DNA from: Allostella vacuolata
GTDB taxonomy: Bacteria; Pseudomonadota; Alphaproteobacteria; ATCC43930; Allostellaceae
Assembly: GCA_006739055.1 (NCBI GenBank)
Contig: AP019702.1
Location: 4,303,388 to 4,367,387 of the forward strand
Reading direction: 5' to 3'
Length of the DNA: 64,000 nucleotides
Shown here: piece after piece, positions 84-18,220 of the stretch
Position numbering within the stretch: position 1 is the first letter of the stretch
Layout of the letters: each line of letters opens with the position of its first letter
Position numbers and translations under genes: made by a program
The notes under the pieces: model-generated
Told to the model about the DNA's origin: nothing
Seen by the model: the letters and a program-made list of their open reading frames with translations, nothing else
Database searches by the model: none

Positions 84-926
84 TCAAACCTCCGTCAGGG
101 CGAAGGGCCAGCCATAGGACCGGAACTGGGCGTGCTCCACCGGGGTCGGCTCGTCGAAATGGCCGACCAGGGTCAGCCGGCCGGCATGGTGGTCCATGCC
201 GGTCCCGACCGAGAACAGCACCGGCCGGGTGCGGCCGGCCATGCGGCCCGCCTCGTACCATTGCGCCAGCGCCGGATCGCGGTCCTGCCCGCGCAGCGCG
301 CCGGCGATGCGCCGCCGCTGCCATTGCCGGCGGCCGAGCAGCGTCCCCGCCCGGCTGCGGCGGACGGTCGCCTCCTCCTCCGCGACCAGGCGGAAGCCGT
401 TGGCGAGGTTGATCCGCGGCCGTTCGGCCTTGGCCGCGAACAGGATCGCGGCCTCGACATGGCCGGCCGGGTTGGCCGCATCGTCGATTTCGACCGTCAG
501 CGCCGACGCGGTCACCGCGGCGTCGAGCTGCAGCAGCCAGCCGATCCCGCGCGGGTCGGCCTCGTCCGCCGGCATGCGCCCGTCCGCACTCGGCCGGCCG
601 AACGGCAGGTAGCCGCCGACCGGCACATGGGTGACCGGCCAGGCGTCGCGCCAGCCGCTGTCGTAGCCCTCGTCCGTGGTGACGCGGATGCGGGCCGCCG
701 GGGACAGGCGGGCGTAGAACAGCCCGACCACGTCGAGCAGCCGCTGCGCCCCGAAATCGACCGTGAACCTTGTGTCGGCCGGATCGACGGAGGCCGAGCG
801 GGCATGGTCGAACGGATCGGCCGTCGCCAGCCCGGCGAGCGGCCGGGTGGGCGCCCAGTCGCCGCCCGAGAAGGCGACGCCGTCCATCCAAACCCAGTTG
901 ATCGGCGCGAGCAGGCAGTTGGCCAT
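84..926 (-). CDS. Phage minor tail protein, function unknown
   Basis: A 280-residue protein in the prophage late operon, four bases downstream of the tail hub gene. The N-terminal half (about 40-160) alternates beta-rich stretches (TRFTVDFGAQRLLDVVGLFY, ASALTVEIDD) that resemble a discoidin-like or jelly-roll module; the C-terminal part is basic and includes GRRQWQRRRIAG. I recognise no catalytic motif. Its place after the hub and tape measure fits a tail-tip, fibre-attachment or baseplate component. Start ATG at 926. Confidence 0.7.
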   Translation of the reverse strand: MANCLLAPINWVWMDGVAFSGGDWAPTRPLAGLATADPFDHARSASVDPADTRFTVDFGAQRLLDVVGLFYARLSPAARIRVTTDEGYDSGWRDAWPVTHVPVGGYLPFGRPSADGRMPADEADPRGIGWLLQLDAAVTASALTVEIDDAANPAGHVEAAILFAAKAERPRINLANGFRLVAEEEATVRRSRAGTLLGRRQWQRRRIAGALRGQDRDPALAQWYEAGRMAGRTRPVLFSVGTGMDHHAGRLTLVGHFDEPTPVEHAQFRSYGWPFALTEV

Positions 927-930
927 CGGT

Positions 931-2634
931 CTATCCCAGCAGGGTCAGGGTCACGGTGTCGGCCTCGAGCCGCAGCTCGCGGGCGACGATCACCAGGTTC
1001 CGCGCGGCGGCGAGGCCGACCTCGGGCGCGGTCAGGCCGACGGTGCGGCCGAGGCGCCAGGGGAGTGCCACCATCGACGCCTCCACCTCGAAGGCGAGTG
1101 CCGCCGGCGACAGCAGGGCGAGCTGCCGCGCCGCCTCCGCCGTCGCGTCCGGGCGGCGGGCGAAGAGGCCCTCGACGAACGCCTCGTCGGCGCCGAGATC
1201 GTCCTGCTGCACGGCCGGCGCCTCGGCGAAGCCCTCGCGCCACTCGGCGAGCAGGAAGCGGCGCACGGCATCGGGTGCGGCCGCGGCGATCTCGGCTGCG
1301 CCATGCACCCGCCAGCAGCGCTCCGCGCCGATCCGCCGCCGCCACAGGGCCTGGCCGACCGGCAGCCGGCGCACGGCCGTGCAATGCCGCTCGTCGAGCC
1401 GGTGGTCCGCCTCCGCGGCCGGGCCGGCATAGCGCCCGAAGGTCACCAGGCCGGCCGGATCGGTATCGATCCAGGCGCCGACGGTGGCGTTGATGCGGTC
1501 GACCAGGTCGCGGCCGGTCGGGCTCTCCTCCCCCAGCCAGGCGCCGAGCGGCGCCGGGGCGGCCGCCGCCAGGGCCGCCAGGGCCGGCGCGTCGAGGTCG
1601 CCGGTCGACAGCGTGAAGCCGGTCTCGGCCGCCATGTCGGCGATCGGCTCGCGCACCTGCAGCGTCAGGGTGCCGACCGCGGCCACGGTAAAGTTGACCC
1701 CGGCATTGAGGCTGGTGCCGGCCAGGCTGACCTGGTCGCCCGGCTGGATGCCAAGCCCGGCGAAGCTGCCGCCGCCCGCGGTGAAGGTGCGGGTCGCCGC
1801 GTCAGCCGCGATCGACCCCAGCACCGCCGGCCCGGCCTCCACATGGCGGAAGCCGAGCCGGTCGCTGAGCACCGTGCGCAACAGGCCCGCCGCCGTCGCC
1901 CGGGTCGCGATACCGGCATCGACCGCCCAGCCCAGCACCACCCGCCCGTCGCCGCCGGCGGCCCCGTCGTCGCCGCCGACACCGACGCCCGGGGCATAGG
2001 CGGGATCGTCGTCGCCGCCGGCCAGGGTGCCGGTGCCGGCCTCGGTCGAACCGCCGCCCGCCAGCGCCGCCCCGCCGCCGCCGGCCCCGCCGGTCGACCC
2101 GGCCCCGCCGCCGCCGCCCGCGTAGCGCCCGCCGCCGCCACCGCCGCCGCCCGAGTTGTTGCCGCTGCCGCCATCGCCGCCCTGGCCGGCCAACCCGTCG
2201 CCGCCATCGGCCCCGCCCGCCTGGCCGGCCCCGCCGTCGCCGCCGGCCAGGCTGTCGCCGCCGTTGCCATGGCGTGACCCGCCGTCGCCGCCGTCGGTAC
2301 CCGACGCACCGCCGCCTGGGCCGCCCGCCGCCTCGCCGGAACCGCCGCCGCCGCCCGGCGCCACCAGGACCGCGGTGAGGTCGCGCAGGATGCCGGCCGC
2401 ACCGCCGCCGCCGCCGCCGGCATACACGGCACCCAGCCCGCCGTCGCCGCCCGGCGCCGGGCCGGGCGAGGCACCGCCCGCCCCGCCGGCGACGCTACCC
2501 TCGCCGGCCCCGCCACCGCCCGGCACCACCACCCGCAGCACCTCGCCCGGGTCGACCGCCAGCACGGCGTCGACGAAGCCGCCGCCCCACCGGGAAGCCG
2601 GTCGCCCCCGCCCCGCCATGGCCGCCGCCCGCAC
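931..2634 (-). CDS. Tail hub protein, 3' segment (glycine-rich region and C-terminal hub domain)
   Basis: A 567-codon frame that continues the hub gene lying to its right. After about 12 out-of-frame residues it picks up the glycine-rich domain (about residues 15-225, runs such as GGGGGGGGRYAGGGGGAG) seen in tail-tip and receptor-binding proteins. A beta-rich module follows, then a C-terminal part typical of siphophage hubs: RDLVDRINATVGAWIDTDPA and, at the end, a conserved pattern ending LEADTVTLTLLG. Homology reading continues smoothly from the 2495-5296 frame if one G is removed from the run at 2585-2588, so these are probably two halves of one gene of about 1454 codons. The ATG at 2634 may not be used in vivo. 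Confidence 0.7.
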   Translation of the reverse strand: MRAAAMAGRGRPASRWGGGFVDAVLAVDPGEVLRVVVPGGGGAGEGSVAGGAGGASPGPAPGGDGGLGAVYAGGGGGGAAGILRDLTAVLVAPGGGGGSGEAAGGPGGGASGTDGGDGGSRHGNGGDSLAGGDGGAGQAGGADGGDGLAGQGGDGGSGNNSGGGGGGGGRYAGGGGGAGSTGGAGGGGAALAGGGSTEAGTGTLAGGDDDPAYAPGVGVGGDDGAAGGDGRVVLGWAVDAGIATRATAAGLLRTVLSDRLGFRHVEAGPAVLGSIAADAATRTFTAGGGSFAGLGIQPGDQVSLAGTSLNAGVNFTVAAVGTLTLQVREPIADMAAETGFTLSTGDLDAPALAALAAAAPAPLGAWLGEESPTGRDLVDRINATVGAWIDTDPAGLVTFGRYAGPAAEADHRLDERHCTAVRRLPVGQALWRRRIGAERCWRVHGAAEIAAAAPDAVRRFLLAEWREGFAEAPAVQQDDLGADEAFVEGLFARRPDATAEAARQLALLSPAALAFEVEASMVALPWRLGRTVGLTAPEVGLAAARNLVIVARELRLEADTVTLTLLG

Positions 2635-5296
2635 CCCACAGGCGCGCGCGCAGAGCCGTGATGCCGGGCGGCACCTGGAAGGTGTAGAGGCCGGGGACGG
2701 CGAACACCCGTTCGCCCGCCGCCGCCCCCAGGCCCGCCTCCATGGTCACGGTCAGCGGATATTGCGGGCGCGAGGCGACCCAGAGCGCGCCCTCGGCCCC
2801 ATCGACGAACGCCTCGCCCGGGCCGGGCGGGAAGGATTCCGCCCGGTCGAGCGCCACCCCGCCATCGAACACGCCATGGCCGGCGGCGGGATCGACCCGG
2901 ACCGGCGCATCGGCCAGGCGGTAGAGCCACAGGCCCTGCACCGAATCGAGCGCCGGCGGCGCCACATGGCGCACGCTGCCGAGTGCCACCGGCAGGTTCT
3001 TGGCCGCCAGCTCGGCCGGGCCGGCATAGGGGCGCAGCCAGATCGACCAGTCGGCATGGGTGCCGGCGCCGGCCGCCTCTGTCACGTCGACCACCAGCTC
3101 GCCCAGCGCCTCGGTCCAGCTCGTCACCCGGCCGGCCATCCAGGTGCCGGCCAGGTCGCCGGTGCGGGCGATGCGCACCGGGTCGTCGGCCACCGCGTCC
3201 GGCTCCTGGCGCAGGGTGACGCCGTCGACGGTGCCGACGAAGGCGGCATCGGCCAGGAAGCCGATCCGGCTGGTCGAGCCGGCCGCGACGAAGGTGGGGC
3301 GCAAGGTGGCCGAGGCGGCAACCGGCTCGCCCAGCGGCTCGCCGTCCAGCGTCACCTGCAGCGTGCCGGCCGAGCGGGTGACGACGGCGCGCAGGCGGTA
3401 GGCCTGGCCCGCCGCCGTCGCCACGTCCTGTTCGAGCGCCGATGCGCTGCCGGCAGCCTTGGCGGCCGCGCCGGACGCATGGGTCCAGCCGCTCCCCGCG
3501 AACCAGCCGGAAAGCGAGGCCGCGAAGGTTCCGTTGGTCGCCAGGTCCGGCAGGATGAAGCTGCGGCTGCCGGCGCCGACCGTGACGGAACTGGCCGAGG
3601 CGAGCAGCACCCGGTCGCCGCCGAACACCTGCTGCTGCACCGGCCGGTCGAGGCGGCGCAGCCGGTCGCGCAGCTGGAAGCTGGCCCGGCCGCCGTCGAA
3701 GGTCACGTCCTCGACCAGGCCGGTGAAAACCGGGCGGAAATCGTCCCAGCCCCAGGCCGGGTGGCCGACCAGCACCTGGGCGCGGCGCCAGCGGAAGTGC
3801 CAGCGCCGCGCGCCCGAGCCGGTCGCCGCGGTCGCCAGCGGGTCGAGCGCGCCGTCGGCATTCTCGACCACCGCCACGCCGCGGGCGGGCTCGGAGCGGC
3901 CGAACAGCTCGGTCCCGGCCCACAGCGCGCGGCGCAGCTGCAGGTCGGCCAGGCGCCCCGGCAGGCGGGTGCTGGGCAGGGAGTCGCCGGGCCGGGTGGT
4001 GTAGTCGCCGGCCGACCAGCGCAGCGGCACCACCGCGCCGGCCTCCGCGTCCCAGGCGTCGATCACCAGCGCCCATTCGATGGCGCCCGCCGCCGGCGCC
4101 AGCAGGGCGTCGAGATCGCCCGGCGGCGGCACCGGCCGGCGCAGGGCGGCACCCGCGACGATGGTTGCGGGGCGGCTGCGCACGGCCAGGCCGGACGGGG
4201 CCGCCTGGCCGTCGAAGCCCAGTTCCAGGTCGAGGCTGGCGGCGTGCCCCTGGGTCGCGAGCGCGGCCGGGGCGGCCTGCAAGGCTTGGCCGGTGATCAG
4301 GGCGGCCGGTGGCGCGGTTACCGCGACCACGGCAGGGTCCGCGGTCAGCAACGCCCAACTGCCGGCTGCCAGGGACGGCGTGCCGGATCGCAGCTCGATC
4401 CGCGCCGGGGCCGCCGTCAGGACGGCGCCGGTGCCGGCGACCAGCTGGGCCGGCGGGGTGGCGACGACGATGCCGGCCGCCGCCGCCGTCAGCAGGTGCC
4501 CGGCCGCCAGGGCCGCCGCGGCACCGGCGGCGACCATCCGCCCGACCCCGGCCACCAGGTCGACCCCACCCGCGATGGTCGCGGTGACGGGGTGGGCGTG
4601 GACGGCGATCCGCGCCGGGGCCGCGGTCAGGACCGCGCCGGTGCCGGCCGCGAGCGTGGCCGGGTGGCCGGTCGCCTCCAGCGCCGCCGCCTCGGCCGTC
4701 AGCTCCACCGGCACGGCCGAGGAGCCCCAGCCGCGGGTGAAGCCGGCCGGGCTGGTGCCGGCATAGTCGGCCAGCAGGCGCAGGGTGGCACTGCGGGTCG
4801 TGTTCGCGTTGCTGTTCCGCGAGCCCGCCAGGAAGAGAGCCGTGCCGGGGGTGAGGGAGTAGTGCTCGCCCGTGCCGGCGGCCGGATCCCCCGACCAGGG
4901 AGCGCCCGCGATCCCGTACCAGATCCGCCCGGCATCGAGGTCGACGAACAGGTCGACCGCATCGCCGTCGGCGTAGCTGTCGCCCAGGTCCGTGGCCCAG
5001 GTGCTGTCGTGGCGCGGGTTGGCGTTGGCGCCGATCGCCCAGCTCTGGTCGGTGTCCCCCAGGCTGAGGGCGATCGAATGGGCGGCGGTGGCAAACCCCA
5101 TCCGGAACGACGTGGTGTTGCCCGGGCCGTGCAGGGTGAGCTGGACGTGCCACTTGCCGGACGAGAGGCCGAGGGTCGAGCGCACCGTGCCGGCGACCGT
5201 GTTCGGGCTCGACGGGAAGGCAAAGGTGCGGTCGCCGTTGGAGAGCGCGATGTCCGCGTCCTTGTCGGACGGGTTCCAGACGGGTTGCTCGGCCAT
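2495..5296 (-). CDS. Tail hub/tip protein, 5' segment with SPRY-like domain (frameshifted)
   Basis: A 933-codon frame. Residues about 25-185 look like a SPRY/concanavalin-type domain (SGKWHVQLTLHG, DQSWAIGANANPRHD, VDLFVDLDAGRIWYGIAG). Then comes an Ala-rich stretch with two copies of GTGAVLTAAPARI. After it lies a tail-hub-like region (LRWSAGDYTTRPGDSLPSTR, FTGLVEDVTFDGGRASFQLR), a carbohydrate-binding-like module (LATNGTFAASLSGWF) and the start of a glycine-rich domain (ARLWGAGGGHGGAGATG). From about residue 903 the sequence turns into an Arg-rich, non-homologous tail, while the glycine-rich domain continues in the next frame. One extra G in the run at 2585-2588 explains this. It is either a real mutation, a +1 frameshift site or a sequencing error. 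Confidence 0.7.
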   Translation of the reverse strand: MAEQPVWNPSDKDADIALSNGDRTFAFPSSPNTVAGTVRSTLGLSSGKWHVQLTLHGPGNTTSFRMGFATAAHSIALSLGDTDQSWAIGANANPRHDSTWATDLGDSYADGDAVDLFVDLDAGRIWYGIAGAPWSGDPAAGTGEHYSLTPGTALFLAGSRNSNANTTRSATLRLLADYAGTSPAGFTRGWGSSAVPVELTAEAAALEATGHPATLAAGTGAVLTAAPARIAVHAHPVTATIAGGVDLVAGVGRMVAAGAAAALAAGHLLTAAAAGIVVATPPAQLVAGTGAVLTAAPARIELRSGTPSLAAGSWALLTADPAVVAVTAPPAALITGQALQAAPAALATQGHAASLDLELGFDGQAAPSGLAVRSRPATIVAGAALRRPVPPPGDLDALLAPAAGAIEWALVIDAWDAEAGAVVPLRWSAGDYTTRPGDSLPSTRLPGRLADLQLRRALWAGTELFGRSEPARGVAVVENADGALDPLATAATGSGARRWHFRWRRAQVLVGHPAWGWDDFRPVFTGLVEDVTFDGGRASFQLRDRLRRLDRPVQQQVFGGDRVLLASASSVTVGAGSRSFILPDLATNGTFAASLSGWFAGSGWTHASGAAAKAAGSASALEQDVATAAGQAYRLRAVVTRSAGTLQVTLDGEPLGEPVAASATLRPTFVAAGSTSRIGFLADAAFVGTVDGVTLRQEPDAVADDPVRIARTGDLAGTWMAGRVTSWTEALGELVVDVTEAAGAGTHADWSIWLRPYAGPAELAAKNLPVALGSVRHVAPPALDSVQGLWLYRLADAPVRVDPAAGHGVFDGGVALDRAESFPPGPGEAFVDGAEGALWVASRPQYPLTVTMEAGLGAAAGERVFAVPGLYTFQVPPGITALRARLWGAGGGHGGAGATGFPVGRRLRRRRAGGRPGRGAAGGGAGRWRGRRG
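2585..2588 (-). other. Frameshift point in the tail hub gene (G4 run)
   Basis: On the minus strand the codons read CCG GTG GGG CGG CGG CTT. Deleting one G gives CCG GTG GGC GGC GGC TTC GTC, restoring the expected PVGGGFVDAV of a glycine-rich tail domain and joining the two open segments. The change needed is +1 relative to the upstream frame, so it is not the usual -1 slippage. Confidence 0.6.
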
Positions 5297-5820: not shown

Positions 5821-8709
5821 TCAGCGCCGGCCGGCCGCCGCGGCGGCGCCGATCGGCGGGCGCTCGGCTACGGCCACGCGCAGGTCCGCACGCAGGCCGG
5901 ACAGTTCTCGGGTCATCAGGGCGATGCCGCGCTCCAGCGTGGCGACGCGGGCCTCGAGCCGCGCCGCCTCCTCGCGATCGCTCGCATCGGACCGGATGGC
6001 GGTCGCGCGCAGCGCCTCGATCGAGGCCGCGACCGCGCCGCCGTTCTGGTTGGCGGCCAGCCGCTCGACGAGGCGGGCCTGCTCCACCGACAGGACCCGC
6101 TCGCCGGGCATGGCCAGGATCGGCACGCTGTCCCGGCCGGCGATACCGCCGGCAACCAGCCCGCCTTCGGCATAGGGCACCCCGAAATGGCCGAACGGCA
6201 CGTCCGCCTGGCGGCGCAGCCGGTCGATGAAGGCGACCCAGCGGTTCATGTCGGGATGGCCGGCCGGCGACAGGAAGGCCTCGTGTCCTCCGCCGCCGAA
6301 GGCGCCGGCATAGCCGGCCGCCGTCGCCGCGGCGAAATACTGCCGGCGGGTGAGGCCGAGGCCGGAGCCATGCGGCTGGTCCAGCCAGGCGAGTGCCGCG
6401 GCGTCCGTCGCCGCCCCGCCATAGTCCGGAAATCGCCGGGCCAGGAAGGCCGATGTCGACTCGTCCGCACCGCGGCCGAGATGGGCCACCCCGAAGGCAG
6501 GCGTCGCCGGCGAGGCGGCCGACCGGAGGTCGAGCCGCAGGCCCGCCACCTCCTCGGCGATGCGCGCCAGCTCGGCGTTGGCGGCGCGGGCGAGGCCGGA
6601 CTGCTGGGCGGCGGCGGTCGCGGCGGCGGCCTCGCCGGCACCGAGCCGCGCCAGGCTGTCCGCGAAGATGGCGGCCGACTGGGCCGACGAGCCGTGGACG
6701 GTCCGGGCCAGTTCCTGCACCCGGCCGGCGGCCTGCTGCAGCAGGCGCGCCGCCTCCGGCGCATCCTCGCCGCCGGCCAGGAGACGGGCGAGCGCCGCCG
6801 CCTCCTCGCGCCGCGCCTCGGCCAGCTGCTCGCCGGGGGAGAGCGGCGACGACGCGCCGGTGACGAGGCCGCCGCGGAACCGCGCCAGATCGCCGGCCGC
6901 GCCGGAGAAGACGCCGGCCAGCCGCAGGGCGGCGCCGGCCGCCTGCCGCTGGCCGTCCTCGAGCCGCAAGAGGGCGTCGATGCCGCTCTCGATCGCCGCG
7001 CGGGAACCTCCATCGGCCGCCGCCAGACCCGCCGTCGCGCTGCCCGCGCCCGACCGGATCGCCGCGGCGACGTCGGCCGCGGCGTCGACGGCGGCCGCGA
7101 TCGCCTCCAGGGCCTCGGGCGCGATCCGTCGCTGGTCGAACTGGTTGGCGAAACGGGGGGCCAGGGCCTCGGTATCGGCGCGGGTCAGCTGCCCGGTCAC
7201 CCCGGCAGCGAGGGCCGAGCGGATCGCGGCGAAGAAATCCGGCGTTGCCGCCGGGTCGAGGCCCAGCGCACGGAACAGCGCGTCGCCCGTCGGCACGTAG
7301 GTCTGCCCGGCCAGCGCGGCGCCGGTGCGATCGAGGAAGCCGGCGCGCTCGGCCGCCAGGTCGGCCGTCAACCCTTCGATCGCCCGGGCGAGCCCGGCCT
7401 CGATCAGTTGCCCCGCCTCCGCGGCGCCATAGCCGAGCCGCTCCAGGATCGGGGCCATCGACTGCCATTCCGCCGTCAGGCGTCGCGTACCCTCCTCCAG
7501 CCGGGACAGGGGCTGTTCGGCGGTCGTGGCACCCAGGCCGGCCATCGCCTCGACCATCGCCCGCAGGCCCTGGGTCGCCGCGTCGAGCGGCAGGCCCAGT
7601 TCCTGGGTCTGGTCGAGGAAGCCGGCGATGCGGCTAGCCAGCGCCTGGGCATCCGCGCGACCCGCCGCCTCGGCGGCAGCGGCCATCGACTGGGCAAAGT
7701 CGCCGATCCCCGACCGCAGGCGCGCCACCGCGTCCTCGAAGCCGGCGATGAAGGTGACGTCGGCCATCAGCTCGTCGACGGTCGACGCGGTCGAGCCGGC
7801 CAGGTGCCGGGCGATCGTCTGCCCCAGCTCCGCGCCCCAGGCCGACCAGTCGGAATCCCGCAGGACGGCGACGGCGAACCCCTGCTTGGCCGCCTCGACC
7901 GCCGCCGCGTTGCCGGGGTCGGCATGAAACCAGGCGCGGTCGGCGGGATCCGGCCCGTCGCCGGCACCGGCGTCGTAGAAGAGCCGCAACCCTTCCTGCT
8001 CGTTCAGTGTCGCGCCGATCGCCGCCGCCGGGTCGGCCGAGCGCCGGACCCCGAAGCGCTGCTCGAGCGCGACCACGATCCGCGTCAGGTCGGTAGTGAC
8101 ATCGCCCGCGGCGTCGGTGACGGAGGGAAAGCGGGTGGAGGCGTACTGCGCCCGGTCCGGATCGGACAGCCAGACCGAGTATTCCCCCTGCGGCACCTTC
8201 GGTTCCTGCTTGAAGAGCGAGCCGAGGACACCGCCCAGCGCGCCGCCGGCGAGCGAGGCGACTGGCCCGAGGAAGCCGAGCCCGGCCGGCAGGATGGCCG
8301 AGAAGCCGGTCGCCGCCGCCCGGCCGAGATTGTTGAAGAGGCCGGAGAGGTCGAGCGCGCCGCCGGCGCCGAACATGCGCCCGACATCCCCCGCCAGCCG
8401 CCCGAAGAGGCCGAGCAGCCCCTCGGCGGCGCGGCTGCCGCCCGCCAGCAGCTCGTCGAAGAACCCGCCGGCACCCTGCCCCGGCAGTGCCGCCACGACC
8501 CGCTCCACCGACGACAGGCCACGCGCGGCGGCGTCGAGCGCGCGGCCGATCGCCTCGCCGCCATCGCCGAGACTGCGACCGAGCGCGTCCAGCCCGCCGC
8601 CGGTCGCAGCCGCACCGGCCCGGATATCGTCCAGCGCGCGCACCGCGCGCGCGGCCCCCGCCTCTGCCCCGGACGGGTCGATCAGGATCTCCAGGACGGC
8701 GTCGGTCAT
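5821..8709 (-). CDS. Phage tail tape measure protein
   Basis: A 962-residue protein, Ala- and Gly-rich and largely helical, with a hydrophobic segment at about 135-167 (LPAGLGFLGPVASLAGGALG), as expected for a tape measure that sets tail length and may enter the membrane at DNA ejection. Near the C-terminus it has the motif GGLVAGGIAGRDSVPILAMP followed by GERVLSVEQA, which recurs at the end of many siphophage tape measures. The final 50 residues look like a coiled coil. The start ATG overlaps the stop of the chaperone extension frame (ATGA at 8706-8709), the classical G-GT-H order of lambda-like tails. Confidence 0.9.
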   Translation of the reverse strand: MTDAVLEILIDPSGAEAGAARAVRALDDIRAGAAATGGGLDALGRSLGDGGEAIGRALDAAARGLSSVERVVAALPGQGAGGFFDELLAGGSRAAEGLLGLFGRLAGDVGRMFGAGGALDLSGLFNNLGRAAATGFSAILPAGLGFLGPVASLAGGALGGVLGSLFKQEPKVPQGEYSVWLSDPDRAQYASTRFPSVTDAAGDVTTDLTRIVVALEQRFGVRRSADPAAAIGATLNEQEGLRLFYDAGAGDGPDPADRAWFHADPGNAAAVEAAKQGFAVAVLRDSDWSAWGAELGQTIARHLAGSTASTVDELMADVTFIAGFEDAVARLRSGIGDFAQSMAAAAEAAGRADAQALASRIAGFLDQTQELGLPLDAATQGLRAMVEAMAGLGATTAEQPLSRLEEGTRRLTAEWQSMAPILERLGYGAAEAGQLIEAGLARAIEGLTADLAAERAGFLDRTGAALAGQTYVPTGDALFRALGLDPAATPDFFAAIRSALAAGVTGQLTRADTEALAPRFANQFDQRRIAPEALEAIAAAVDAAADVAAAIRSGAGSATAGLAAADGGSRAAIESGIDALLRLEDGQRQAAGAALRLAGVFSGAAGDLARFRGGLVTGASSPLSPGEQLAEARREEAAALARLLAGGEDAPEAARLLQQAAGRVQELARTVHGSSAQSAAIFADSLARLGAGEAAAATAAAQQSGLARAANAELARIAEEVAGLRLDLRSAASPATPAFGVAHLGRGADESTSAFLARRFPDYGGAATDAAALAWLDQPHGSGLGLTRRQYFAAATAAGYAGAFGGGGHEAFLSPAGHPDMNRWVAFIDRLRRQADVPFGHFGVPYAEGGLVAGGIAGRDSVPILAMPGERVLSVEQARLVERLAANQNGGAVAASIEALRATAIRSDASDREEAARLEARVATLERGIALMTRELSGLRADLRVAVAERPPIGAAAAAGRR

Positions 8710-9457
8710 GACGGGTCACTCTCCTTGGCGGTCGCGTCGGCGGTCGTGACGTGGGCGATCCAGGCCTGGTCGAGCAGCCCGACGATCTCGCGGAACTCCG
8801 CGCGCAAGCCCGGATCGTCGATCCGCTCCTCGGCCAGCCATTCGCGGACGGCCGAGAGGGGAATGGGGCCGGGCGGCGGACCCGGCGGGCGCTCGCGCGC
8901 CAGGTCGAGGAAGGCCCGCCAGTAGGGTTCGGCCCAGGGGGCGATCTCCGGCCGGGCCGCGAGCGCCGCCGGCACCCGGCCGGTGCGGTCGCGGCGGGCC
9001 TCCAGAAGATCGGCCCGGGCGCCCCATTCCAGGACCCAGGCCAGGACCGCCGTCAGTTTTTTGCGACGTCCGCCACGAACTGCCGGCGGAAGCTCTCGGC
9101 CGTGTTCGCCGCCTCGAAGACGAGGTCGCGGAAGCGGCGGTGGGCGGGATCGAGGAAGATCGCCGCCGCCCGCTCGCGCGAGAAGGGGATCGGCCGGCCG
9201 TCCTCGTCCGTCAGGCCCTGCCAGCCCGCGACCACCTCCTCGGCCAGCAACCGGGCGGCGATCTCGTCCTGCTTTTCGGCCGGGATCGCCACCCCGGCGC
9301 CGACCAGCCGGGCGAGCGGGCGCAACAGGCGCGCCTGGGCGTTGCGGTAGGAGGGGGTGGCGGTCGACCGCACGGTGACGACGAGGCCCGGCAGGATCTC
9401 CACCGGCACGCCCGCCTGCTCGGCCACCGGGTCGGTGGCGAGATCGCTCAGCTTCAT
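8706..9457 (-). CDS. Tail assembly chaperone GT fusion made by -1 frameshift
   Basis: The upstream chaperone frame starts at 9457 and is read to the slippery heptamer A AAA AAC (9062-9056). There a -1 slip bypasses the TGA directly behind it and adds about 116 residues (LTAVLAWVLEWGARADLLEA and on to the stop at 8706). The product would be about 250 residues. In lambda-type phages the minor G-T fusion carries tape-measure-binding function and its ratio to G matters for tail assembly. The arrangement before the tape measure, the overlap with the short product's stop and the perfect heptamer make this assignment strong, although the extension itself has no motif I recognise. Confidence 0.85.
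9053..9457 (-). CDS. Tail assembly chaperone G-like protein (short product)
   Basis: A 134-residue protein starting MKLSDLATDPVAEQAGVPV and ending QFVADVAKN before a TGA. Position between the tail tube and tape measure genes, size and the terminal slippery site identify it as the gpG-type tail chaperone, which coats the tape measure during tail assembly. The region PGLVVTVRSTATPSYRNAQA is typical of the tail-assembly chaperone fold in siphophages. Start ATG at 9457 follows an AAGGAG-like site (GAAGGAGCGTTCC in transcription sense). Confidence 0.85.
   Translation of the reverse strand: MKLSDLATDPVAEQAGVPVEILPGLVVTVRSTATPSYRNAQARLLRPLARLVGAGVAIPAEKQDEIAARLLAEEVVAGWQGLTDEDGRPIPFSRERAAAIFLDPAHRRFRDLVFEAANTAESFRRQFVADVAKN
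9056..9062 (-). promoter_or_regulatory. Programmed -1 ribosomal frameshift site A AAA AAC
   Basis: In transcription sense the sequence is GTC GCA AAA AAC TGA CGG. The heptamer A-AAA-AAC is in the correct phase (X XXY YYZ) and the 0-frame stop follows at once. A slip by -1 opens a 116-codon frame. This is the canonical bacterial slippery sequence also used by dnaX and by many phage G/GT pairs. I did not work out a downstream pseudoknot or stem. Confidence 0.9.
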
Positions 9458-9468
9458 GGAACGCTCCT

Positions 9469-10881
9469 TCAGGCGGCAAATTCGGGCAGGCGATCGATCT
9501 GCAGCGACGTGCCGGTCACGGGACAGCGCAGGCCCATCAGCTCGAAGCGCAGGACGCAGTCGGCATTGCGGCTGCCGGCCTCGATCCGGCCGCCGGCCAG
9601 CTTCACCCGCGGCAGGGTGACGACGTAGGCCTGGCCGGCCGCGGCGGCGACGAAGGCGAGCGAGGTCTCGGTCCCGGCCAGGTACTTGTCGTAGAGGGCG
9701 CCGTCCTGGAAATAGGCCTCCAGCGAACCGCCGACCGCGGCGTCGCCGACCCCGATCGCGACGTTGCCGAGCGTGCCGACCGCCTTCACCTCGCGCAGGT
9801 TGTTGTCCAGCTCGACCGTCATCTGGCGGATGATCCCGGCCCCGCCGCCGCCCTCGCGCACCAGCACCACGTCGCCGACCGCGTTCATCACCGGGGCGGT
9901 GCCGGCCGGCAGCGGGTCGCCGGTGCCGAAGCTGGCCGTGCCGCGCAGCGCGTCGCGGCCGACCAGGTCGAAGCTCGCCTCCAGGATCCGGCCGGTGGCC
10001 AGGGTCAGGCGCAGGAGCCGCACCATCTGGCCGCGGAACAGCAGCACCTGGCCGATATCCCCATGCGCCCGCTCGATCGCGTGGGAGATCTCCTCCACCC
10101 CGCAGCGCAGCACGTCGCCGAAGAAGACGCGGATCGTCCGGCCGGTGCCGGTATCGGCCGTCCAGTCCTCCGGCAGGTGGTCCAGCGCCAGGGCATGGGC
10201 GCCGATCCCGGCGACCCGCGCCCAGCCGTTGTTGGCGGCGGCGGCGAACCGGGTGCCGGACGCGGCGCCGCCGATCGCCAGCCACTGCCCGACGACGAGG
10301 CCCAGCGCGGTGAAGTCGAGCTCGCTCGATTCGAGCCCGCCCGCGACAGCCCCGATGTCGCCATCCGCGCCCTCGAAGCCGACGGCGCGGATAGCCTGGG
10401 TCGGCGCCGAGCCCGCGGTCGTCAACGGCGTGCCGGCGACGGTGACCGCGGTTCCGGTCGCCGAGGCGACGCGATGGAGGCCGTTGTTGCCGGGCTCGGC
10501 AAAGCCGCTGCCGCGCAGCAGGTGGCCTTCGGCGAAGGCCGTCCCGCCGGCCGCGACGCCATAGGCCGAAGTCGTGGTGGCAGCGGCGGCGGTCAGGTGC
10601 GCCACCGCCTGGAAGCGGCCGAACATTCCTGCCTCGAACAGCGGGTCGGGCGCGCCGTAGCTCAGTTCCATGCCGATCGAGCCGGCCGCGCCGGCATCGA
10701 CCCGGGCCACGTCGGCCACCTGGCGGTCGGCGCGGAACTCCTCCGAGGCCACATGGCGCAGCGTGAAGTCGAGGCTCTGGGACTTGGCGCGCAGGGCCCG
10801 CATGGGCAGGTCGGGCAGCTCGCCCCAGCTCGTCTCCTCGACGAGGCGGAGCGCGACCCGGCTGGTGTCGCCGATCGTCAT
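9469..10881 (-). CDS. Phage major tail tube protein
   Basis: A 470-residue beta-rich protein (MTIGDTSRVALRLVEETSWG; ELDFTALGLVVGQWLAIGG; RQMTVELDNNLREVKAVGTL; ending VLRFELMGLRCPVTGTSLQI). It fits the large phage tail tube family (PF18906-like) whose copies stack into the non-contractile tail. The motif LDNNLREVKAVGTLG with an acidic loop before the last strands is typical of that family. It lies between the tail terminator and chaperone genes, as expected. At 470 residues it is longer than lambda gpV, which suggests extra surface domains in the middle (about 130-260). Confidence 0.85.
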   Translation of the reverse strand: MTIGDTSRVALRLVEETSWGELPDLPMRALRAKSQSLDFTLRHVASEEFRADRQVADVARVDAGAAGSIGMELSYGAPDPLFEAGMFGRFQAVAHLTAAAATTTSAYGVAAGGTAFAEGHLLRGSGFAEPGNNGLHRVASATGTAVTVAGTPLTTAGSAPTQAIRAVGFEGADGDIGAVAGGLESSELDFTALGLVVGQWLAIGGAASGTRFAAAANNGWARVAGIGAHALALDHLPEDWTADTGTGRTIRVFFGDVLRCGVEEISHAIERAHGDIGQVLLFRGQMVRLLRLTLATGRILEASFDLVGRDALRGTASFGTGDPLPAGTAPVMNAVGDVVLVREGGGGAGIIRQMTVELDNNLREVKAVGTLGNVAIGVGDAAVGGSLEAYFQDGALYDKYLAGTETSLAFVAAAAGQAYVVTLPRVKLAGGRIEAGSRNADCVLRFELMGLRCPVTGTSLQIDRLPEFAA

Positions 10882-10908: not shown

Positions 10909-11319
10909 TCAGAAGAAGCTGTCGCGCACGAAGGGCACGGTGACGGTGGCGCGCGCCCAGCCCTCGCCGTCCTCGGCGAGGGCCAGGCGCGGCGCATGGC
11001 AGGCGAGACCTGGCGCGGACCAGCCGCGCAGCACGGCCGCCGCCCGGTCGGCCAGATCGAGCAGACGCGCGCGGCCCTGCCCGGGCGGAGCGAATATGTC
11101 GACGGTGACGAGGCCGGCATGGCGATGCAGCTGGCGGCCGTCCGCGGCGAAGCCGGCCGCGCGCGCATCGACCGGGACGACGGCGAAGCGCAGCCAGGGC
11201 GCGGCCGGCGGCGGCGGGGTCGGGTCGTCCGCCCAGCGCACCGGCACCCCCGGCTCGACCAGCGGCCATTCGCCGGCGAAGCGGGCCGACAGGACCAGCA
11301 GTTCCTGGCGCCAGCTCAT
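10909..11319 (-). CDS. Phage tail terminator-like protein
   Basis: A 136-residue protein (MSWRQELLVLSARFAGEWPL ... ATVTVPFVRDSFF). Small alpha/beta proteins at this position, directly before the tail tube gene, are tail terminators that cap the tail and join it to the head (DUF4128/gpU-like). The pattern VDIFAPPGQGRARLLDLADR followed by a strand-rich C-terminus fits. The start overlaps the stop of the preceding gp10-like gene (ATGA at 11316-11319), so the two are translationally coupled. Confidence 0.75.
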   Translation of the reverse strand: MSWRQELLVLSARFAGEWPLVEPGVPVRWADDPTPPPPAAPWLRFAVVPVDARAAGFAADGRQLHRHAGLVTVDIFAPPGQGRARLLDLADRAAAVLRGWSAPGLACHAPRLALAEDGEGWARATVTVPFVRDSFF

Positions 11320-12546: not shown

Positions 12547-12604
12547 GTCATGTCCTTGGTTTGAAGGCGCAGCCGCCCATGATGTTTCCGGGCGGCGCGG
12601 CATG

Positions 12605-12661
12605 TATGATGTCGGCGGAAGGCAGAGGCATGCCTGCACAGGATCGGGCGATCCGGAGGAG
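12605..12661 (+). promoter_or_regulatory. Candidate promoter and ribosome site of the cupin moron
   Basis: Between the connector gene and the cupin gene there is a TATGAT (12605-12610), a fair -10 box, followed by a strong Shine-Dalgarno GGAGGAG (12655-12661) nine bases before the cupin ATG. The -35 match is poor. The gene is read against the flanking operon, so it needs its own promoter; this is the best candidate in the 120-base gap. Confidence 0.35.
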
Positions 12662-12669
12662 CGACATCG

Positions 12670-12945
12670 ATGGACCAAGCCGCTTTCGAGGCGCAGCTGC
12701 GCCAGGATGGGTTCGAGGTCGAGGTCAAGCAGGTCCCGGGAGGGATCAGGAACGATCCCCACACGCACGACTTCGAGGTCCGGGCGCTCGTGCTCGACGG
12801 CGAGATCACGCTGACCTGCGGCGGGACCCGGACCACCTACCGCACAGGCGAGGTGTTCACGATGGCCGCGGGGATGCCGCACGCGGAGGAGATCCCGGCG
12901 CCCTACCGCTTCGTCGTCGGGCGCCGGCATCCCGCCGGGGCCTGA
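12670..12945 (+). CDS. Small cupin-domain protein (phage moron)
   Basis: A 91-residue single-domain cupin. The sequence NDPHTHDFEVRALVLDGEIT gives the first cupin motif (H-x-H ... E ... G) and TYRTGEVFTMAAGMPHAEE gives the second (G ... P ... H), so a metal site of His/His/Glu/His type is plausible. It is read on the plus strand inside a minus-strand capsid operon and has its own Shine-Dalgarno, the layout of a moron gene that can be expressed from the lysogen. The function is unknown; small cupins of this type include sugar or small-molecule binding sensors. Confidence 0.8.
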   Translation: MDQAAFEAQLRQDGFEVEVKQVPGGIRNDPHTHDFEVRALVLDGEITLTCGGTRTTYRTGEVFTMAAGMPHAEEIPAPYRFVVGRRHPAGA

Positions 12946-12953
12946 TCGGCCCC
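12937..12953. terminator. Weak hairpin between convergent cupin and capsid genes
   Basis: GGGGCC-TGATC-GGCCCC forms a six-pair stem with a five-base loop that contains the cupin stop codon. It lies between convergent genes (cupin and capsid) but has no T tract on either side, so it could at best weaken transcription in both directions. Confidence 0.3.
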
Positions 12954-12969
12954 GTCCGGGATCGCCCCC

Positions 12970-13995
12970 TCAGTTCGAGCTGTAGATGCGCACGGCGAGC
13001 GCCGGACGACGGACGACCGGCAGCGGGTTGCTCTCGGTCATCAGGTCGACGCCGCGCCCGTCCGGCCGCCCGACCTGGCGGGCATAGAGCGGCAGGCCGA
13101 TGGTGTTGGCGGCCTCGATCAGGTTGGCCGGCGCGAAGTAGGTGACGAAGGCGTCGGTGGTGCCGAGCGGCACGGCGATGCCGTCATTGGCCGGCACCAG
13201 AGGCTCGGCGGCGTTGTTCGACAGGGTGACGGTGCCGCCATATTCCTCGAAGACGATCCCGGCGAAGGGGAAGCCGCGGCGCAGGTCGTCGCGCAGCGGC
13301 TGGCCGCCGCTGGTGGCCGCGAAATAGCGGTAGGCGTCCTTGACCGAGGCGTGGCCGACCAGCTTGTCCCAGAATTCCGGGCTGACCAGGGCATGCACCC
13401 CGGTCATGGTCTCGCCGCGCAGGTTGGTCTCCATATGGCGCAGCACTTCGCGGCACTTCTCCGCCACCTCGGTGCCGCCGGTGCCGAGCGCGAAGTCGAC
13501 CGTCTTCTGGATGATGCCGAACTCCGCATGCCAGTCGTAGAGCACCGCCCCCGCCCCGTCGCGAAGCTGGCCGCGCAGCGCGTTGACCCGCATGAATTCC
13601 AGCGTCTGGGCGTGCTTCATGCGCATCCGCGCCAGGCGCCGCTCCATCAGCTGGGCGAGCGGGTCGGCGGCGTCGGTGGCGCCGAAGGCGCGAATGCCCT
13701 GCACGTCCTGGGGCAGGATGACGTCGTCGTGCGGGATGTGCGGCACGACGAAGCCGCGCTGGCGGCGCCGGCTGCGGTTGGCCAGCGTCGGCGGGCCGCC
13801 GGGCGGCACCGAGGGCAGCAGGTTGAGGGTGCCGTCGGCCTCCTCCAGCACGATCTGGCGCTGGGTCACGCCCTCCTCGCGGAAGATGCCGAGCTGCCCC
13901 ACCCGCCCGTAGCGGTTGGGCAGCAGGTTGATCGCCTCGGTCAGCTCGGCCAGCGAGAAGCCGCCGGCATCGAACGGGTTGGTGATGACGGTCAT
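12970..13995 (-). CDS. Phage major capsid protein (lambda gpE family)
   Basis: A 341-residue protein. MTVITNPFDAGGFSLAELTE, INLLPNRYGRVGQLGIFREE and the later FPFAGIVFEEYGGTVT, followed by an 'ALVSPEFWDKLVGH' region, are diagnostic of the Phage_cap_E (PF03864) family, whose members adopt the HK97 fold and form the icosahedral head. The C-terminus (LYARQVGRPDGRGVDLMTES) is the conserved end of that family. Directly upstream is the head decoration gene, as in lambda D-E. Start ATG at 13995. Confidence 0.93.
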   Translation of the reverse strand: MTVITNPFDAGGFSLAELTEAINLLPNRYGRVGQLGIFREEGVTQRQIVLEEADGTLNLLPSVPPGGPPTLANRSRRRQRGFVVPHIPHDDVILPQDVQGIRAFGATDAADPLAQLMERRLARMRMKHAQTLEFMRVNALRGQLRDGAGAVLYDWHAEFGIIQKTVDFALGTGGTEVAEKCREVLRHMETNLRGETMTGVHALVSPEFWDKLVGHASVKDAYRYFAATSGGQPLRDDLRRGFPFAGIVFEEYGGTVTLSNNAAEPLVPANDGIAVPLGTTDAFVTYFAPANLIEAANTIGLPLYARQVGRPDGRGVDLMTESNPLPVVRRPALAVRIYSSN

Positions 13996-15178: not shown

Positions 15179-15592
15179 TCAGGCCGGCAGACGGCGGGCG
15201 ACGCCGCCGATCGACAGGGCGGCCAGCTCGCCCGCCAGGACGGACGCCCAGGCCTGGTCGTCGTCGATGCGGATGCCGACGAACCACCCCTCCTGCCCGG
15301 CCGGGATGCCGAGCGCCTCCTGGATGGCGGGGGTGACGACCAGGCTCTCGACCACGGTGCCGACGGCGGGGATATCCTCCCCGCCGTCGGCATGTCCGGC
15401 CGCCCCGCGGCGGGATTGCGCCATGAAGGCGTGGGCAGCGCGGACAAGCTCTTCGGTGGCGATCACGTCGCCCTCGGCATCGACCAGCGGCGCGCCGTCG
15501 CGCACCGAGACGCTGGCCCAGCCCCAGACGGTGCGCAGGGCCGGATCGGCCTTGGCGATCGGCAGGGTCAGGGCGAAGGGATGCTCGGTCAT
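15179..15592 (-). CDS. XkdF-like prohead protease
   Basis: A 137-residue protein with TVWGWASVSVRDGAPLVDAE, GDVIATEELVRAAHAFMAQS and the GHADGG segment, then FVGIRIDDDQAWASVLAGEL and the ending LSIGGVARRLPA. This is the Peptidase_S78_2/XkdF pattern ('G.a.v...d..lvD.qGd.i'; 'S.GG.A'), a protease that matures the prohead. It overlaps the portal stop by four bases (ATGA at 15589-15592). The match to the motif is good, but catalysis cannot be proven by eye. Confidence 0.8.
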   Translation of the reverse strand: MTEHPFALTLPIAKADPALRTVWGWASVSVRDGAPLVDAEGDVIATEELVRAAHAFMAQSRRGAAGHADGGEDIPAVGTVVESLVVTPAIQEALGIPAGQEGWFVGIRIDDDQAWASVLAGELAALSIGGVARRLPA

Positions 15593-16884
15593 TCGGGGTT
15601 CTCCGGGGTGGCGCCCTCGGGCAGCGGCAGGCCGGCCGCGGTCCTGAGGAAGCGGGCGAGGGAATCGTCGGGGAAGAGCGGCACGCCGGCCGCCGCCAGG
15701 CGCTCGACCAGGCCGGCCAGCGTCGCGGCATCGACCCGGCCGACGCGGCCCGGCACCAGGCGCGGCATGGTCGCGGGCGGCAGCGCGTTGATCCGCCACA
15801 GCCGCGGCACGAGATGCCGGTTGAGGACGGCGGCGATGGCCGCCAGCCAGGCCGTCAGCGCGGTCTCGAAGCGGTCGCCCTTGTCGCGGGCCAGCGCATA
15901 GGAGCCGTTGCCGTCGCGCCCCAGCAGGATGAAGTCCGCCAGCGCCGTCATCGCGATCTCGCGGCTGCGGTCGACGATCGCCTCGCGGATCGGCACCGAC
16001 TGGCCCGACGGCGCGCCCAGCAGGCCGAACTCGAAATAGGGATGGCCGTGCTCGTCGCGGTCGGACGGGAGGACCAGGCCGGCGCGCTCGTCCACCTGGG
16101 TGTCGCGGACGATGCGCTGGAAGTCGGCGAAGAGGGCGCGCTCCTCGGCGCTGGCGCCGGCCGCCATGAAGCGGGCCGGGATGCGCGCGACCGGCAGCCC
16201 GCCCAGCGCCCGCCAGTAGCCGATCGCCTCCCCCTCCTCCAGCCGCTTCTTGAAGTACCAGGGGCGGTAGGCGTTGCGCAGGATCGAGCGACCCTCCGGG
16301 TTGCCCTTGGCCGCGGTGGTGCGGAACAGCAGCGACTTCTCGATCGGGATGAAGACCGGCTGCGGCGCGTCCGGTGCCGGCGCCTGCCACATCCCGCGGA
16401 TGCCGCCCGCGGCATCGAACTCCCAGCGCAGCAGGGTCTCCTGGCCGCGCAGCGCCAGCTTGCGGATGCCGACGCGGCCGTCCGGGAAGCGGGATCGGGC
16501 GGCGGGGGCGGCCGGGTCGCCGAGCCGGCGCTTCCAGACGATCTCGAACCAGGCCCAGCCATGCACCAGCATGCCCAGCACCTCGACCAGGAAATCCTCG
16601 AAGCCGTGGCTCATGTCGTCGCGCACGCTCTCCAGGAAGCGTGCGCCCTCGCGCTGGGCGGCTTCGCGGCCGGCCGGCTCGACCGACCAGGGCACGCCGC
16701 GCAGCGTCATCTCGACCGCGAACAGGACGGCGCCGACCACCGGGTCGTTGGCCGCCATCTCGCGATAGGCGGCGACGCCGCGCGGGCCCTGCAGCTCCGG
16801 CAGGAACTCCTCGCGGACCAGTCCCGACCAGGCGCGCAGGCCGGACCGGCCGAGCTCGGCCAGCGACGGCTCAGCGGCGGCCAT
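15589..16884 (-). CDS. Phage portal protein
   Basis: A 431-residue protein. AYREMAANDPVVGAVLFAVE and MTLRGVPWSVEPA at the N-terminus and FFKKRLEEGEAIGYW-type helices mark a DUF935-like portal (Mu gp29 relatives and small siphophage portals). The portal ring is the DNA gate at the unique vertex and docks the terminase. The stem-like helix-rich segment lies at about 205-330. It overlaps the start of the large terminase reading by 14 bases (16871-16884) and the protease by four, so the whole packaging block is translationally coupled. Confidence 0.85.
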   Translation of the reverse strand: MAAAEPSLAELGRSGLRAWSGLVREEFLPELQGPRGVAAYREMAANDPVVGAVLFAVEMTLRGVPWSVEPAGREAAQREGARFLESVRDDMSHGFEDFLVEVLGMLVHGWAWFEIVWKRRLGDPAAPAARSRFPDGRVGIRKLALRGQETLLRWEFDAAGGIRGMWQAPAPDAPQPVFIPIEKSLLFRTTAAKGNPEGRSILRNAYRPWYFKKRLEEGEAIGYWRALGGLPVARIPARFMAAGASAEERALFADFQRIVRDTQVDERAGLVLPSDRDEHGHPYFEFGLLGAPSGQSVPIREAIVDRSREIAMTALADFILLGRDGNGSYALARDKGDRFETALTAWLAAIAAVLNRHLVPRLWRINALPPATMPRLVPGRVGRVDAATLAGLVERLAAAGVPLFPDDSLARFLRTAAGLPLPEGATPENPE

Positions 16885-18220
16885 CGCCGCCCCCGAGGAA
16901 GAAGGGCGCGACCAGCGGGGCGGACGGGCCGTCGGCCAGCGCCGTCAGCGCCCAGACCAGCGCGTCGACGCGATCGGGCGACGGGCCGTCGCCGCCGGGA
17001 AGATAGGCGCACATCTGATCCTCCAATGCATCGAAGCGGCCGGCGTGATGGACCCGGCCCTGCTCGTAGAGGGCGGCCACCGGCTCGGCCCGGGCCTGCT
17101 TGCCGCGGCTGGCCGTCACCCGCCGGTAGGCGAGGTCGGGCGTCGGGCGGCGGCCTTCGGCCGCCATCGCCTCGGCCGCTCGGCGCAACACGGCTTCGAC
17201 CATGTCGCCGCCATTGTTGGCCTCGCCGATCAGCCGGTCGGCGCCGAGCCGGTCATAGGCGGCGACGGCGCGCCGGGCCCAGCCGTCGGGCGACAGGCGG
17301 GCGCTGGCGTCGGCGAGGACGAAGAAGCGTCCGGCGCGGTCGCGGGCGGCAGCCACGATGCCGGTCTCGTCGCTGTCGGGCCCGGCGGTGGCGGCCGGGT
17401 CGACGGCGACCACCACCCGGGCCGGCGGGCCGTCCGGCGCAGCGCGGAACCCCTCCCGGTCGAACATCGCCCGCGCCCACAGGGCGCCCGGCAGGTCCTC
17501 CAGGAACTCGCCGCCCAGTTCCTGCCGGCCGAGGCGGGTGCCGCCGTAGCGCCGCGCCAGGTCGGCCAATGCCTCCGGCGCCAGGTTGGCGGCATTGTCG
17601 TCGGTGGTGCCGCGGGTGACGACCGTGGCGGGCGAGGCCAGCAGCTGCTTCAGCCAGGCCCGCGGCCGGGGAGTGGAGGTGGCGACGCAGCGCGCCATGC
17701 CGCGCCGCAGCCCCATCATCAGGTTGTGCCAGGCCTCCTCGTCCGGCCACTTGGCGACCTCGTCGGCCCAGGCGAGGTCGTGCTCCGGCCCGCGCAGCTG
17801 CTCGGGGTCGACGGCGGCGAAGGTAGTCGCCACGGCGCCGTTGGCCCAGCTGAGGCGGCGCAACGACGGCTGCCAGCGCGGCCGGGCCCAGGGTGGCGAG
17901 ACGGCGAGGATGCCGGACGGCCCCTCGACCATCACGTCGCGCACGTCGGCCGCGGTCTCGCCGACGATGGCGATCCGCCGCGCCCGGCCGGCCGCCACCT
18001 CGGCGCGGATGAACTCGGCCGCCGCCCGCGTCTTGCCCGCGCCGCGACCGGCCTGGATGAACCAGACCCGCCAGGGCGGCGGCGGCGGCAGCTGCATCGG
18101 CCGGGCCCAGAAGCGCCATTCGTAGAGCAGGTGGGCGTGGGCCGCGGGCGACAGCGAGGCGAGGAAGGACCGGCTGAGCCCGGGCCGGACGGCCAGGCGG
18201 GCGGCGACGGAGTGGGTCAT
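16871..18220 (-). CDS. terL: Terminase large subunit
   Basis: A 449-residue DNA-packaging motor. The ATPase domain has Walker A QAGRGAGKT (residues 56-64) and Walker B DLAWADE (about 145-151), followed by a coupling motif around VATSTPRPR. The nuclease domain starts at about 265 with VVVAVDPAATAG, continues with GADRLIGEANNGGDM and ends with DRVDALVWALTALA, giving the acidic cluster that binds metal. The architecture matches the compact terminases of alphaproteobacterial prophages and GTAs. The start overlaps the small-subunit stop by four bases. Confidence 0.93.
   Translation of the reverse strand: MTHSVAARLAVRPGLSRSFLASLSPAAHAHLLYEWRFWARPMQLPPPPPWRVWFIQAGRGAGKTRAAAEFIRAEVAAGRARRIAIVGETAADVRDVMVEGPSGILAVSPPWARPRWQPSLRRLSWANGAVATTFAAVDPEQLRGPEHDLAWADEVAKWPDEEAWHNLMMGLRRGMARCVATSTPRPRAWLKQLLASPATVVTRGTTDDNAANLAPEALADLARRYGGTRLGRQELGGEFLEDLPGALWARAMFDREGFRAAPDGPPARVVVAVDPAATAGPDSDETGIVAAARDRAGRFFVLADASARLSPDGWARRAVAAYDRLGADRLIGEANNGGDMVEAVLRRAAEAMAAEGRRPTPDLAYRRVTASRGKQARAEPVAALYEQGRVHHAGRFDALEDQMCAYLPGGDGPSPDRVDALVWALTALADGPSAPLVAPFFLGGGDGRR

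Follow-up and report, generated by a model that had tools for sequence, protein, structure and literature searches.

A -1 frameshift in the tail-assembly chaperone gene is a well-known device of long-tailed phages, and Xu, Hendrix and Duda (2004) reportedly described this conserved tail-gene frameshift in a layout that is matched by the locus studied here. In lambda, the slippery site is G GGA AAG. According to the model proposed for this phage, the tape measure protein is coated by the short form, and the tube protein is recruited by the fusion, which is scarce (PMC5009743). For an HK97-like chaperone cluster, frameshifting was measured at 6-7% (PMC3711429). Heptamers have also been published for the chaperones that precede the tape measure in phages of the phiCbK type, namely AAAAAAC for phiCbK gp93/gp94 and GGGAAAC for Colossus (PMC3556154). 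In addition, gp12/gp13 of Acinetobacter phage Loki carry AAAAAAC right beside the stop of the short chaperone (PMC5313236).

We compared these systems with a locus of the genus Stella, located in a stretch of 64 kb (72.6% GC) that is called the window hereafter. The short chaperone frame of this locus is homologous to the phiCbK-type chaperones (tblastn matches to CcrSC and CcrBL9), with which it shares an AAAAAAC adjoining the stop as well as the place before the tape measure. However, the phiCbK type belongs to giant lytic Caulobacter phages with far larger genomes, whereas the cluster that contains the frames here is chromosomal, spans ~21 kb and encodes a Phage_cap_E head. The likeness to lambda gpG/gpGT concerns the layout and the -1 direction, and in both systems a chaperone gene that directly precedes the tape measure is extended at its C-terminal end, the A-site codon being AAC in our case. 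The original prediction that the site reproduces the lambda G/GT arrangement is therefore right about the layout, but the nearest relative is a chaperone of the phiCbK type. Loki has the same adjacency of heptamer and stop as the window but possesses an extra HK97 gp10-like gene between the chaperones and the tape measure, which is not present here. The predicted frameshift is thus of the lambda G/GT type and ordinary in kind, considering that these very heptamers were already known for homologous chaperones of the phiCbK type.

Chaperone frames and predicted slippery heptamer

The features of the site are the following:

9053..9457, minus strand: tail assembly chaperone, zero-frame product (gpG-like, 134 aa); PHROG 313 E=7e-22, PHROG 8233 E=7e-13
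9056..9062, minus strand: candidate slippery heptamer A AAA AAC, immediately followed by the zero-frame TGA; assigned from the sequence and from conservation in relatives
8706..9056, minus strand: -1 frame extension (T-like domain, 116 codons plus stop) of the predicted 250-aa fusion; PF23812 Phage_TAC_18 E=6e-9, PHROG 3817 tail chaperonin E=2e-16
5821..8709, minus strand: ORF of 962 aa in tape-measure position; assigned from position and length, the PHROG match being weak

The short frame starts at the ATG at 9457, runs for 134 codons on the minus strand and stops at the TGA at 9055-9053. Its 3' end reads GAC GTC GCA AAA AAC TGA CGG CGG on the reverse strand, so that the AAAAAAC at 9062-9056 has its X at codon position 3, i.e., in the X XXY YYZ phase. 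After the heptamer, the -1 frame (CTG ACG GCG...) is open from 9056 to 8709 over 116 codons, and its stop TGA (8708-8706) overlaps the ATG (8709-8707) of the 962-aa ORF as ATGA; the TGA of the extension overlaps the next ATG in 4/4 Stella genomes. The chaperone frames are thereby placed between the tail tube gene (9469-10881) and the ORF starting at 8709. As judged from their sequence matches (PHROG 313, 8233 and 3817; Pfam Phage_TAC_18), the short frame and the extension both have known tail assembly chaperones as homologues, the PF23812 match of the extension scoring above the family cut-off. These data agree to the base with the original prediction, which had placed A-AAA-AAC in correct phase directly before the TGA of the short frame and had given, correctly in both numbers, a 116-codon extension and a 250-residue fusion frame. 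It had also located the extension just ahead of the tape measure, as found here with the tape measure assigned by position and length.

The site very probably signals a programmed -1 ribosomal frameshift within the gene of a phage tail assembly chaperone. The majority of ribosomes would stop at the TGA right after AAA AAC and produce the 134-aa chaperone (G-like), while a minority, probably a few percent, would slip back by 1 base, with the P- and A-site tRNAs re-pairing from A-AAA-AAC to AAA-AAA. The slipped ribosomes would then add 116 residues to the 134-aa frame, giving a 250-aa fusion (GT-like) whose predicted junction peptide is KN-LTAVLAWVLEWGAR. If the analogy with lambda holds, the tape measure protein would be coated by many short copies, and the few fusions would recruit the tail tube protein. 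The signal thus predicts a protein of 250 aa, one that standard gene callers would overlook since the extension lacks its own start codon.

The heptamer is rare in its context, as had been supposed for A-runs in a GC-rich host. The window contains a single A6 run and a single AAAAAAC, both at this site, while dinucleotide shuffling of the window gives an expectation of 0.14 AAAAAAC. The whole 5.83-Mb genome contains 19 copies of AAAAAAC (both strands) and only one of AAAAAACTGA, which is the one at this site. The codons of the site are rare ones, AAA accounting for 3.9% of the Lys codons in the window and GCA for 2.7% of the Ala codons. The -1 frame remains open well upstream of the heptamer (ORF listed at 8706-9479), and in a sequence this rich in GC, an open overlap carries little weight in itself. 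Since long open frames are cheap here, the case is made by the heptamer and by the degree to which the extension is conserved.

Conservation of the junction

We searched 60 related genomes using the short protein as query and found only 3 matches, all in other members of the genus (G001, G002, and G003; the genome of the window is G000). As expected from the alignment with relatives that had been proposed as a check, GCAAAAAACTGAC is unchanged in 4/4 Stella genomes while the adjoining codons vary, and GCA AAA AAC TGA is invariant in all of them despite the rare GCA and AAA codons. Among these genomes, the short frame shows 79-92% identity with pN of 0.04-0.12 versus pS of 0.26-0.35, and the extension, compared in the -1 frame, shows 60-68% identity with pN of 0.21-0.26 versus pS of 0.41-0.44. 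A pN of about half of pS indicates that purifying selection acts on the extension as read in the -1 frame.

We considered whether the locus may encode two separate proteins, a short chaperone and an internally started -1-frame protein, with no fusion at all, as the GenBank records of homologous phages annotate two separate CDS. However, in the four Stella genomes, we found neither a -1-frame start codon common in position nor a Shine-Dalgarno sequence before any -1-frame start codon, making separate initiation of the extension unlikely. Moreover, the extension is conserved in these genomes from the first residue past the heptamer, and an invariant heptamer would be left unexplained by internal initiation. 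Two independent products are therefore highly improbable.

The programmed frameshift reading was then considered in the wider family, PHROG 313 being present in 22/289 alphaproteobacterial genomes and in 29/398 genomes of the phylum. An in-phase RRRAAAC is found at the junction in 42/54 chromosomal loci from many Proteobacteria. The set includes the four Stella loci, and because some of its loci are closely related among themselves, it does not represent 54 independent events. All six annotated phages with homologues have an in-phase RRRAAAC as well (AAAAAAC in 3 and GGGAAAC in 3), while the background for an in-phase RRRAAAC is 0.46% of random 130-nt windows, as calculated from the first 27 loci. 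Near the end of the short frame, the heptamers of the 54 loci are AAAAAAC (37), GGGAAAC (5), AAATTTC/T (4), AAAAAAG (2), and TTTTTTC (1), and the remaining 5 have no recognised in-phase heptamer in this region. The -1 extension measures 97-136 codons in the six phages and 70-136 codons in nearly all loci. Considering loci and phages together, 48 of the 60 examined have AAC as the A-site codon. At the protein level, few positions are conserved as well as the Lys-Asn of the heptamer, which is kept in at least 90% of homologues in an alignment whose rows are mostly only ~20-35% identical to the window protein. The selection on the heptamer that had first been argued from its rarity is consequently supported by its invariance in Stella and by its recurrence in phase across loci and phages. 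A search of IMG/VR for close relatives found none, and the extension used as tblastn query gave no phage match.

These homologues also bear on a transcriptional origin of the fusion, in which RNA polymerase would add an A within the A6 run and some mRNAs would encode the fusion with no ribosomal shift. A6 is indeed a homopolymer, and one extra A gives the same fusion frame, but such a run is short for polymerase slippage. In several homologues, G GGA AAC replaces A AAA AAC, removing the long homopolymer and yet keeping both the X XXY YYZ pattern and the phase, which agrees with tandem tRNA slippage rather than with slippage on a homopolymer. Transcriptional slippage is thus very unlikely to account for the site.

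A chance A-run or a sequencing error beside the stop, in a decaying prophage, is the least probable of the explanations considered, to which we give hardly any credit. It would draw on the long open frames that arise by chance at 73% GC, and on the one in-frame stop found in the tape-measure-position gene of the fragmented G003 assembly. On the contrary, the same block is present in four assemblies, its conservation is family-wide, and pN/pS is well below 1 for the short frame and for the extension. Chance or assembly error was therefore rejected on the evidence of relatives.

The family also shows a second layout (L018, L022, L023, L080-L086, L105, and others), in which a distance of 90-108 nt separates AAAAAAC from the zero-frame stop downstream of it. 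The overlap between the frames then amounts to ~30 codons, and past the zero-frame stop, the -1 frame continues for another 76-83 codons. Related chaperones at L024, L025, L087, L092, and L095 have A AAT TTY/T or T TTT TTC instead of RRRAAAC.

Candidate stimulators and decoding tRNAs

We also looked for elements that could stimulate the predicted ribosomal shift, and one candidate was found downstream:

9011..9043, minus strand: possible stimulatory hairpin, starting 12 nt downstream of the heptamer; weak, z -1.1 to -1.6

In a consensus fold of the four Stella sequences, the stem (9043-9011) is kept in the window and in G001 and partly broken in G002 and G003. In the family as a whole, the predicted 3' structure is stronger than its surroundings, falling in the lowest decile in 11/24 loci with a median percentile of 0.13. 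Upstream of the heptamer, an anti-SD duplex scan for a Shine-Dalgarno-like stimulator gave only background level in Stella, 28-31% of positions being equally good, and the duplex is strong in a few relatives (L013, L016, and L029).

Concerning decoding, Stella has separate tRNA-Lys genes for the UUU and CUU anticodons, together with tRNA-Asn(GUU). In E. coli, A_AAA_AAC is much less shifty than A_AAA_AAG (PMC5009743). We infer that AAC may be favoured as second codon in hosts that read AAG with a dedicated CUU tRNA. The A_AAC used here, in contrast to the A_AAG favoured in E. coli, is consistent with a host that has a separate tRNA-Lys(CUU), and this provides a testable rule for alphaproteobacterial slippery sites. 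As for the protein itself, the predicted fold of the short chaperone (pLDDT 82, a fair model) gave no meaningful PDB match.

The particle cluster in Stella

The chaperone frames belong to a minus-strand cluster whose main landmarks in the window, besides the site itself, are the following:

9469..10881, minus strand: major tail tube protein; PF18906 Phage_tube_2 E=2e-35, PHROG 290
10909..11319, minus strand: tail terminator; PHROG 179 E=2e-19
12970..13995, minus strand: major capsid protein, Phage_cap_E family; PF03864 E=2e-109
15589..16884, minus strand: portal protein, Mu type; PF06074 E=9e-30, PHROG 113
16871..18220, minus strand: terminase large subunit; PF03237 and PF17289
20040..20774, plus strand: divergent CI/S24-type repressor at the cluster edge; PF00717, HTH_31

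The cluster begins outside the window, at about -1.6 kb, and reaches 19.4 kb, corresponding to ~21 kb of head, tail, and lysis genes. Its head side contains the terminase, the Mu-type portal, a protease, a decoration protein, the Phage_cap_E capsid, and connectors, and its tail side the terminator, the tube, the chaperone, the tape-measure-position ORF, tail tip genes, an endolysin, and a spanin-like gene. Among the cluster genes scanned, we found neither an integrase nor a replication gene, and the nearest tyrosine integrase is more than 100 kb from the cluster. The nearest named phage matches of the capsid are Acidithiobacillus phage AcaML1 (62%) and then Wolbachia phage WO (49%).

In G001, G002, and G003, the cluster adjoins the same right-hand host genes as in the window. 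About 2 kb of the left flank is common to G001 and G002, G000 differs there, and the contig of G003 ends inside the left part of the cluster. pS of the cluster genes is mostly 0.23-0.47, equal to that of host genes (0.32-0.47), and pN is lower than pS in all the cluster genes compared, except in a partial match of the short Rz-like gene. Synteny and host-like divergence together argue that the cluster predates the Stella species split and has been kept under selection.

This organization resembles that of RcGTA (Rhodobacter type) in being a compact head-tail cluster without integrase, inherited with the chromosome of an alphaproteobacterium. In contrast to RcGTA, the head proteins comprise a Phage_cap_E capsid, a lambda-D-like decoration protein and a Mu-type portal. 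The RcGTA-type capsid domain PF05065 was not found in G000, and its matches in G001 and G002 lie elsewhere than the cluster. Together with the synteny and the host-like divergence, the gene content suggests that the cluster encodes a particle that is gene-transfer-agent-like or domesticated in some other way. We propose, tentatively and as somewhat less than an even bet, that the frameshift serves such a domesticated particle and not a phage. The particle would be a GTA-like element whose head lineage, of the Phage_cap_E family, has no relation to RcGTA, and selection would have kept its frameshift and its head-tail-lysis genes since before the Stella split. The retention by descent of this particle cluster, largely intact, in four Stella genomes suggests a GTA-like element that is new to description.

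Several differences between the four genomes were also observed. In the fragmented metagenome assembly of G003, the in-frame stop of the tape-measure-position gene (L011, ~544-3528) could be either real decay or an assembly error. A 420-bp insert (12547-12969) is found in G000 only, between the head-tail adaptor and capsid genes, and carries on the opposite strand an ORF of 91 aa with a cupin domain (12670-12945, plus strand). In the large tail-tip ORF (2495-5296), the stretch at 4138-4725 does not align between Stella genomes and is possibly the variable receptor-binding part of this gene.
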